Under the pieces are notes generated by a model that had not been told where the DNA came from, did not search any database, and saw only the letters and a list, made by a program, of their open reading frames with translations. From positions 1 to 39,594 of the forward strand of contig NZ_JAEPMO010000018.1 in NCBI RefSeq assembly GCF_017643905.1: a stretch of DNA of 39,594 nt, written 5' to 3'. Shown in pieces: positions 14,108 through 15,410 of this stretch. The translations under genes were made by a program, and so were the position numbers. The stretch's first letter is position 1. Every line of letters starts with the position of its first letter. Source of the stretch: Marivita sp. Its GTDB lineage: Bacteria; Pseudomonadota; Alphaproteobacteria; Rhodobacterales; Rhodobacteraceae.

Positions 14108-14737
14108 ATGACCCGCGCACATATTCCTGGCATTATTGCCATGGCCCTCATCGTGTTGGCCTCCAACATCCTCGTCCAATTCCTGTTCGGGAACTGGCTG
14201 ACATGGGGTGCCTTCACCTATCCGCTCGCATTTCTTGTCACCGACCTGATGAATCGCCTCTACGGCCCAAGCGCTGCGCGTAAAGTCGTGTTTGCCGGCT
14301 TCATCGTCGGCGTGATCTGCTCGTTGATCGGCACCCAGATTCAAGGCGAATTCGGCCCGCTGGTCACGCTCCGGATCGCGCTGGGATCGGGGATCGCCTT
14401 CCTGACCGCCCAACTTCTCGATGTCTCGATCTTCGACAAGATGCGCAACGGTGCATGGTGGCGTGCGCCGCTTGCGTCGACCCTGATTGGCGCGTCGGTC
14501 GACACCGCGCTCTTTTTCTCGATCGCGTTCTCGGCAACACTCAGCTTCATCGAACCTGCAAACGACGTATCCTGGGCGGGTGAGATGCTCCCGCTGCTCG
14601 GCGCAGGCCCGGTGGCGCCGCTTTGGGTGTCGCTCGCTGTGGCCGACTGGATGGTCAAGATCGCGCTCGCGCTGCTTGCACTGATACCATTTCGACTCAT
14701 CGTTCTGCGATTTCGCGAAAAAGCAGCGCTGACGTAA
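14108..14737 (+). CDS. VUT family (YhhQ-type) queuosine precursor transporter
   Basis: A 209-residue membrane protein of the VUT family (DUF165), which in E. coli YhhQ takes up the queuosine precursors preQ0/preQ1. Family features are the early span ALIVLASNILVQF, then TWGAFTYPLAFLVTDLMNRL followed by YG, and later span-rich segments with GASVDTALFFSIAF. About six spans are visible. ATG 14108 has GGGAG six bases upstream; a start at 14018 would add 30 residues of unrelated sequence. The gene ends 60 bases before the unusual leader element at 14797. Confidence 0.87.
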   Translation: MTRAHIPGIIAMALIVLASNILVQFLFGNWLTWGAFTYPLAFLVTDLMNRLYGPSAARKVVFAGFIVGVICSLIGTQIQGEFGPLVTLRIALGSGIAFLTAQLLDVSIFDKMRNGAWWRAPLASTLIGASVDTALFFSIAFSATLSFIEPANDVSWAGEMLPLLGAGPVAPLWVSLAVADWMVKIALALLALIPFRLIVLRFREKAALT

Positions 14738-14763
14738 GAAAACAGTTGCGCGACACGGAAAGC

Positions 14764-14791
14764 CTGTCACGCTGAAGATGCGTTTTATCAA
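14764..14791 (+). promoter_or_regulatory. Possible promoter of the arfB leader
   Basis: CTGTCA (14764-14769), a 16-base spacer and TATCAA (14786-14791) each match a sigma-70 consensus box at four of six positions. Transcription would start near 14797, at the first base of the extended ribosome-binding sequence. Weak by itself; placed here because the downstream element ends in a terminator and needs a promoter in this space or in the upstream gene. Confidence 0.3.
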
Positions 14792-14812
14792 CAGCTGAAA
14801 GGAGGTGATCCA

Positions 14813-14869
14813 GTGTCGAGAGAGGTATTGGAGAGAGGTGTCGGAACAGTTCGAGAGGCGCACATCTAG
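14813..14869 (+). CDS. Candidate 18-residue leader peptide
   Basis: GTG-initiated ORF encoding MSREVLERGVGTVREAHI, with the strongest possible Shine-Dalgarno (AAAGGAGGTGATC) eight bases upstream. It ends at TAG inside the structured element and overlaps the left arm of the nine-base pairing, so translating ribosomes would open that helix. It has three arginines and no obvious run of one codon. Either a regulatory leader peptide or a chance frame behind an rRNA-complementary sequence. Confidence 0.45.
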   Translation: MSREVLERGVGTVREAHI

Positions 14870-14940
14870 GGCAGCCCCTGGGTGAAAACCCCTCGAATTG
14901 GTGTGGAACCTAACCGAACCCCACCTCCGTAAGTCTCGAA

Positions 14941-14966
14941 GGGTCGCCCATGTGGCGACCCTTTTT
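14941..14966 (+). terminator. Intrinsic terminator directly before arfB
   Basis: GGGTCGCC-CATGT-GGCGACCC followed by TTTTT, a perfect 8-bp GC-rich stem with T-run: a textbook intrinsic terminator. The arfB ATG is 22 bases after the last T, leaving little room for a separate promoter. Confidence 0.9.
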
Positions 14967-14987
14967 GTATGAGCTAAGTGAACGGCG

Positions 14988-15410
14988 ATGATACAGATTT
15001 CAGAGTCCATCAGCATCGAAGACTGGGAACTGACAGAGCAGTTCATCCGCGCGTCTGGCCCCGGTGGCCAGAACGTCAACAAGGTCTCGACTGCGGTTGA
15101 ACTGCGGTTCGAAGCGGAACGATCCCCCAATCTCCCTGGTCCGGTGAAAACGCGCTTGCGTCGCATTGCCGGGCGGAAATGGACCAAGGACGGTGCAATC
15201 GTGCTTCAGGTGGATGATACGAGGTCACAGGCCCGCAACCGTGAAATCGCGCGGGATCGTTTGAAAGAGATGATCGTTGCCGCCCTGACGCCCCCCAAAC
15301 GCCGCGTGCCCACCAAACCAACACTTGGGTCCAAGAAACGCAGGCTGAAGGAAAAGAAAGTACGTGGCGAAGTCAAATCGCTGCGCGGGAAAGTCGATCC
15401 CGAAGTTTGA
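14988..15410 (+). CDS. arfB: Alternative ribosome-rescue factor / peptidyl-tRNA hydrolase ArfB
   Basis: A 140-residue protein, the same length as E. coli ArfB (YaeJ). It enters stalled ribosomes on mRNAs lacking a stop codon and hydrolyses the peptidyl-tRNA. The catalytic GGQ is at residues 26-28 in ASGPGGQNVNKVSTAVELRF. The C-terminal tail is strongly basic (KPTLGSKKRRLKEKKVRGEV), as needed to sit in the empty mRNA channel. The ribosome-binding site (AAGTGAA) is mediocre. It lies 22 bases after a strong terminator, so its expression probably depends on readthrough or on a promoter overlapping the terminator. It converges with the TIGR02302 gene. Confidence 0.93.
   Translation: MIQISESISIEDWELTEQFIRASGPGGQNVNKVSTAVELRFEAERSPNLPGPVKTRLRRIAGRKWTKDGAIVLQVDDTRSQARNREIARDRLKEMIVAALTPPKRRVPTKPTLGSKKRRLKEKKVRGEVKSLRGKVDPEV

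Follow-up and report, generated by a model that had tools for sequence, protein, structure and literature searches.

The closest described relative of the element analysed here is rreB of the Bradyrhizobiaceae, reportedly a small mRNA with a 17-nt Shine-Dalgarno sequence (SD) and an ORF of 14 amino acids (aa), which is bound to the 30S subunit and weakly translated. An 18-aa counterpart in the Rhodobacter/Roseobacter lineage is said to have been named rreR. The long SD and the GTG start codon reportedly impede translation, and the transcript is said to be more stable when the start codon is removed. Genes of this kind are recognized by a small ORF that is immediately preceded by at least 16 nt complementary to the 16S rRNA 3' end. 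We take our element to be this rreR, which corresponds in the Rhodobacter/Roseobacter lineage to the rreB of Bradyrhizobium. CC2171, a Caulobacter small RNA (sRNA) described by the Rfam model RF01867, is also similar in part, as are attenuators of the trpL/rnTrpL type, which release a leader RNA.

The analysed window is the whole stretch of 39,594 nucleotides of a Marivita sp. contig (Rhodobacteraceae), and all features described below lie on its forward strand. A structured RNA element occupies positions 14797–14966, between a yhhQ-like gene that encodes a queuosine precursor transporter (14108–14737; PF02592; TIGR00697, 95.0 bits, cut-off 50.95) and arfB (14988–15410; PF00472; NF006718, 185.4 bits, cut-off 100). 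An earlier note on this DNA, written by a model from the letters alone, had named arfB and placed before it a perfect complement of the 16S 3' end, an 18-codon ORF and a terminator; each of these was recovered. The complement, an extended SD of 17 nt (14797–14813), is exact (GAAAGGAGGTGATCCAG) and is conserved in the alignments of relatives. Its last base is the first G of the GTG start codon (14813–14815) of the ORF (14813–14869), which encodes MSREVLERGVGTVREAHI and ends with TAG (14867–14869), about 70 nt upstream of the intrinsic terminator (14938–14966). The T-run of the terminator (14962–14966) is followed at 14988 by the ATG of arfB, and the sequence between them (14968–14987) offers arfB no clear SD.

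The 16S tail used for these comparisons, CTGGATCACCTCCTTTC, was taken from the 16S gene of a relative, in which the flanks are plainly 16S; the window's own draft assembly holds no second copy of GGATCACCTCCTT, and hence the tail is known from that relative alone. A search for AAAGGAGGTGATCC with up to two mismatches gave one match in the window, which is exact, and matches in 27 of 100 shuffled versions (mean 0.32). Since shuffled sequences also match, the evidence for the 16S complement is its conservation in relatives and not the count with mismatches allowed.

The complement thus extends over 17 nt directly before the ORF, where rreB and rreR call for at least 16. The ORF is 18 aa long in 84 of the 87 best-matching Rhodobacteraceae loci and 14 aa long in all four named Bradyrhizobium loci checked, and these lengths agree with those reported for rreR and rreB. 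The element is most probably rreR, a gene already known. Accordingly, the remark in the earlier note that no leader of arfB had been described overlooks rreR, which, if this identification is right, is published. With rreB and rreR the element shares the 17-nt extended SD, the GTG start, the 18-aa ORF of the Rhodobacter/Roseobacter lineage and a predicted short transcript; the synteny with arfB, the locking of the SD and start codon by two helices (P1 and P2, below) and the free peptide of fixed length are results of the present analysis, which may or may not already be in print. The paper concerned (Hahn et al. 2017, RNA Biol 14:1353-1363) appears by title in the reference list of PMC7298713. 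Our literature search, whose reach did not extend to Hahn et al. 2017, found no arfB leader in these bacteria and nothing linking rreR to arfB or to CC2171.

In order to place the element in its family, we searched 295 Rhodobacteraceae genomes with it by BLAST, of which 242 matched, and kept the best 90 of the listed matches. Three of these loci (L032, L043 and L079), in which the anchor AAAGGAGGTG..RTG is missing, were set aside, which leaves 87 loci; L043 and L079 carry GGAAGGAGGTG..GTG instead. A further nine, five of which had no called 3' end and four of which were truncated, were removed to give an alignment of 78 rows. The rows were selected with AAAGGAGGTG as the anchor, which qualifies its conservation in them. 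Adjacency was defined as an arfB start 100–800 nt, or a yhhQ end within 400 nt, from the motif, and for loci L031–L090 the sequence reaches only some 300 nt beyond the BLAST match in either direction, so that the synteny counts are lower bounds.

By these definitions yhhQ lies upstream in at least 81 and arfB downstream in at least 78 of the 87 best-matching family loci, six having no yhhQ match and nine no arfB match. The order yhhQ–RNA–arfB is conserved in the Rhodobacteraceae. The distance from the called RNA 3' end to arfB is at most 30 nt in 33 of the 74 family loci measured (median 37), and would often leave too little room for a promoter between the terminator and arfB. Given gaps this short, transcription of arfB in such loci probably has to cross the element, and often it would come from readthrough or from a promoter within or upstream of the RNA. 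Ahead of arfB, an SD-like tetramer is present in only 24 of 78 best-matching family loci, a count made with approximate starts (22 of the 78 assigned starts are not ATG). In three Rhodobacteraceae genomes the RNA lies beside yhhQ with arfB 2.6–2.8 kb further on (G287, G115) or on another contig (G221).

We also checked 15 of the 53 family genomes without a BLAST match, and 12 of them contain arfB. A AAAGGAGGTG motif lies 190–976 nt upstream of arfB in nine of these 12, always with yhhQ. Seven of the nine diverged motifs are shortened to AAAGGAGGTGCC and do not reach the full 17-nt match, and two are full. The ORF has exactly 18 codons in six of the eight diverged loci that were read, with peptides unlike that of the window. 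Since these loci keep yhhQ and arfB, most of them with a shortened AAAGGAGGTGCC, the locus order is old and the long SD dispensable. Six loci (L274, L275, L276, L279, L281 and L284) combine AAAGGAGGTGCC with an ATG start and a 16S complement of about 10–12 nt, and five of the six have an 18-codon ORF; such natural variants could be compared with the other loci to learn what the long SD does. In another locus, L277 (genome G015), the 3' part contains GGATCACCTC, which copies the 16S tail in cis over a greater length and would pair with GAGGTGATCC in the SD region of the same locus.

The element of the window has a computed folding energy of −75.3 kcal/mol (z −4.86), and 0 of 200 shuffled versions were as low. 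The consensus fold of the 78 Rhodobacteraceae sequences comprises 43 pairs, at which 94.8% of the cells can pair, compared with 89.1% in shuffled alignments. Both sides have changed in 23 of the 43 pairs, against a shuffled mean of 13.7 and 13–17 in slid versions of the structure, and the covariation score is 0.322 against 0.209 for shuffled and at most 0.118 for slid versions; since this alignment also supplied the structure, the comparison with the slid versions is tilted in its favour. The 9-bp helix that the earlier note had described, CAGTTCGAG with CTCGAATTG, is present in the minimum-energy fold, but the GNRA hairpin next to it (GGGTGAAAACCC), although present as a sequence, is absent from the minimum-energy and consensus folds and is not conserved; the minimum-energy fold instead puts the stop codon in a competing hairpin.

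In helix P1, seen both in the minimum-energy fold and in the alignment of 78 sequences, the SD core GGAGGTG (14801–14807) pairs with a cis anti-SD, CACCTCC (14922–14928), which belongs to a conserved CRCCUCC about 115 nt downstream. The consensus pairs of P1 are kept in 99.1% of cases, with one-sided G-U changes only. The start codon is enclosed in hairpin P2 (14809–14832; 96.8% paired, one-sided changes only). Such one-sided variation is what a fixed strand would lead one to expect, and covariation therefore leaves P1 and P2 unproven. Downstream of the start codon, helix P4, which pairs roughly GTTCGA with TCGAAT and spans 14849–14898 from end to end, shows the strongest covariation of all interior helices in the 78-sequence alignment, with both sides changed in 5 of 6 pairs and 90.0% paired. 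Hairpin P5 (14865–14882) contains the stop codon and has changes on both sides in all 4 of its consensus pairs (84.6% paired), and the terminator has them in 10 of 12 pairs (97.4% paired).

The 17-nt complement of the 16S tail covers the 5' arms of both P1 and P2. The computed duplex of the 17 nt with the 16S tail amounts to −31.0 kcal/mol, compared with 10.0 needed to open the site, and that of the 7-nt SD core to −12.6 compared with 7.7; the calculated energies would thus favour full invasion much more than they favour pairing of a 7-nt SD. The likeliest partner of the SD is CACCTCC, CGCCTCC or CATCTCC in 71 of the 87 best-matching family loci. Pairing of the SD core exceeds 0.5 in 82 of the 87 real family sequences, but also in 77% of shuffled ones, and for 148 loci from outside the Rhodobacteraceae its mean, 0.56, falls below the 0.70 of shuffled versions. 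Because shuffled sequences pair the SD as well and loci outside the family pair it less, an SD lock is a trait of the Rhodobacteraceae at most. A class-wide cis anti-SD had been considered from locus L091, whose ORF contains a mimic of the 16S tail (TGGATC..CCTCC); it was dropped when the SD pairing of the 148 loci fell below that of shuffles.

In 84 of the 87 best-matching family loci the ORF ends with a stop at codon 19, and all three stop codons are used (41 TAG, 25 TGA and 18 TAA). TGG was never found there, with about 12 expected if the two purine positions were independent, by our own arithmetic and with kinship ignored. Each clade has its typical ORF length: Rhodobacteraceae share 18 with most Sphingomonadales, whereas Bradyrhizobium has 14 and Mesorhizobium 23. 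Residue 2 is serine in 84 of the 87 family loci and in 147 of the 148 others. Over codons 2–18 of the Rhodobacteraceae ORF, pN/pS is 0.78 in frame and 0.71 and 0.78 in the other two frames; over codons 2–13 it is 0.56 in frame versus 0.83 and 0.84. Four other clades gave 0.99–2.55 in frame versus 0.62–1.01 in the other frames. A conserved leader peptide, as the first alignment had suggested, was rejected, since the comparison with the other two frames lent it no overall support. What seems to be maintained is translation that stops at a defined point, and the peptide itself appears to be hardly constrained, if at all.

In the family, TTGAC occurs at −62 to −36 from AAAGG in 50 of the 87 best-matching loci, versus 0–3 of 87 in six upstream control windows and 1–4 of 87 in three downstream ones, and the RNA probably has its own promoter there. 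The candidate in our window (14746–14773; −35-like TTGCGC, −10-like CACGCT) is weak, and its counterparts in relatives are stronger; a sigma-70 scan of the window found no promoter before the RNA, where TTGCGC, a weak match, is all that it offered. The conserved −35-like box of the relatives, together with the terminator, would fit a separate short transcript, the promoter match in the window being weak. In the window genome the RNA probably lies in the transcription path of arfB.

Beyond the family, RF01867 aligns with the element from end to end at 35.7 bits (E 3.2e-6), below its gathering cut-off of 75, and the window contains no match at the Rfam gathering cut-off. The element and CC2171 share the 5' block around GAAAGGAGGUGAUCCAGUGUC and the 3' terminator, and differ in the interior and in the ORF. 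RF01867 matched 61 of 289 class genomes, nine of them over the cut-off, and among 14 control genomes Caulobacter vibrioides alone. Six genomes (G306, G332, G452, G536, G562 and G569) gave more than one match each, which may be paralogs or weak chance matches. All of the 30 class-level RF01867 loci have an RTG start (ATG or GTG), which is not part of the RF01867 search. A model built here, R1, matches the same place and strand in 30 of these 30 loci (E 2.2e-10 to 0.0035); R1 also gives wrong-strand matches of up to 23.8 bits, and its weak matches may rest on the 5' block and the terminator. Across the class, R1 found matches at E ≤ 0.001 in 49 of 240 genomes, many of them weakly supported and some with short or terminator-like matches, so that this is not a family count. 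The strict motif followed by RTG was found in 79 of 135 alphaproteobacterial genomes, and was missing in the other 56, compared with 2 of 263 genomes of other Pseudomonadota (totals counted by hand). Among the matches listed are Sphingomonas, Methylobacterium, Bosea, Bradyrhizobium, Mesorhizobium and many Rhodobacteraceae. One motif match falls in a metagenome-assembled genome (MAG) labelled Gemmatimonadota (L150, CP070812.1) and may reflect chance, transfer or a mixed assembly. Perhaps CC2171, which Rfam classes as an sRNA, forms one family with the rre small mRNAs.

In none of the 30 class-level RF01867 loci does arfB or yhhQ lie within about 1.5 kb of the RNA, and the neighbours vary in kind and in strand. 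Occurrence of the RNA beside unrelated genes is what the earlier note had named as speaking against its reading, and outside the Rhodobacteraceae this is the case. In one genus among the class-level loci (L100, L101 and L103), a gene that by eye resembles dnaX follows the RNA on the same strand. The claim about adjacency outside the family rests on these 30 loci, because the 148 other loci are, by construction, what remains of 179 after removal of the 31 with an arfB or yhhQ match. Among those 31, arfB is on the same strand in 18 and on the opposite strand in three, and ten have yhhQ only, some at the edge of the locus. The three with arfB on the opposite strand, L178 (a Hyphomonadaceae MAG), L249 and L250 (two genomes of another family), have it upstream, with starts 174, 853 and 845 nt before the motif, and for this reason readthrough from the RNA cannot serve arfB there. 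To judge from these gene orders, the neighbourhood with arfB may be older than the Rhodobacteraceae.

Taking this evidence together, we consider it likely that the element, as rreR, represents the Rhodobacterales in a family of alphaproteobacterial mini-mRNAs, and that it is gated by the ribosome, whose occupancy and not the peptide matters. The members (rreB, rreR and the CC2171 RNA) would be short mini-mRNAs with a long SD, their own terminator and probably their own promoter. In the Rhodobacteraceae RNA the cis anti-SD would hold the SD core in P1 and the start-codon hairpin would hold the GTG in P2, until a 30S subunit with a free 16S tail displaces both helices by strand invasion through the 17-nt complement. 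The ribosome would then read 18 codons and stop inside hairpin P5, its occupancy setting the fold, the translation and the stability of the RNA. The terminator would end the RNA, with some polymerase reading on into arfB. Occupancy is probably what matters because the peptide is hardly constrained. A more specific form of this, a ribosome meter that works independently of the peptide, with the SD and start opened by the 30S tail, the stop placed on a particular hairpin by the fixed ORF length and a coupling in cis to ArfB in the Rhodobacteraceae, is a tentative possibility that we hold to be doubtful.

The earlier note had suggested that arfB is read only through this element. As an attenuator or leader, the RNA would respond to ribosome availability or to stalling on the 18-codon ORF with a shift of its fold and thereby of the readthrough into arfB. 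What stood of this is the family context: RNA and terminator are conserved upstream of arfB in at least 78 of 87 loci, often at 30 nt or less, with yhhQ on the other side; nine of the 12 unmatched genomes with arfB keep motif and yhhQ; and a minority of arfB genes are preceded by an SD-like tetramer, as far as their approximate starts allow. Against it, the RNA is away from arfB in 30 of 30 class-level loci, lies on the opposite strand from it in three others, and persists within the family where arfB is 2.6–2.8 kb off or on another contig. The earlier note had found no clear antiterminator; the minimum-energy and consensus folds contain none and place P1 and the terminator side by side, and the ORF stop is some 70 nt short of the terminator. 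The trpL/rnTrpL type has the same short ORF, terminator and co-directional downstream gene, whereas our element has neither a terminator/antiterminator pair in its predicted folds nor a fixed downstream gene across the class. Such an attenuator is in our view unlikely. Because relatives of the RNA are found in many Alphaproteobacteria, mostly away from arfB, it would not be a dedicated arfB leader, and the leader idea, partly supported, survives only as an addition specific to the family.

The conserved blocks outside the ORF (CCTAACCG and TCTCGAA), the cis anti-SD and the filing of CC2171 as an sRNA would fit an RNA that acts in trans, in which the ribosome opens P1 and the freed CRCCUCC and loops pair with the SDs of other mRNAs; we regard this as quite unlikely, the cis anti-SD not having been seen as a general feature outside the Rhodobacteraceae. 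That the 18-aa peptide is a functional microprotein seems highly improbable: the lower in-frame pN/pS of codons 2–13 and the nearly invariant Ser2 speak for it, but over codons 2–18 and in the four other clades the ratio gives it no such advantage, and the diverged relatives keep the length alone. We think it just as improbable that the RNA is a pure 16S decoy, titrating 30S tails (in stationary phase, for example) with translation incidental. The strong computed 17-nt duplex, which when fully paired covers the first base of the start codon, would suit a decoy, but start, stop and ORF length are maintained and members without the full extension exist.

If the gating of rreR by the ribosome is true, the element would be a natural case in which 16S complementarity far beyond a normal SD serves as a key for strand invasion, and in which an ORF is kept for the place where the ribosome stops and not for its product. 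The conserved order yhhQ–rreR–arfB offers a simple handle on whether ribosome rescue in the Rhodobacteraceae is tied to ribosome availability.
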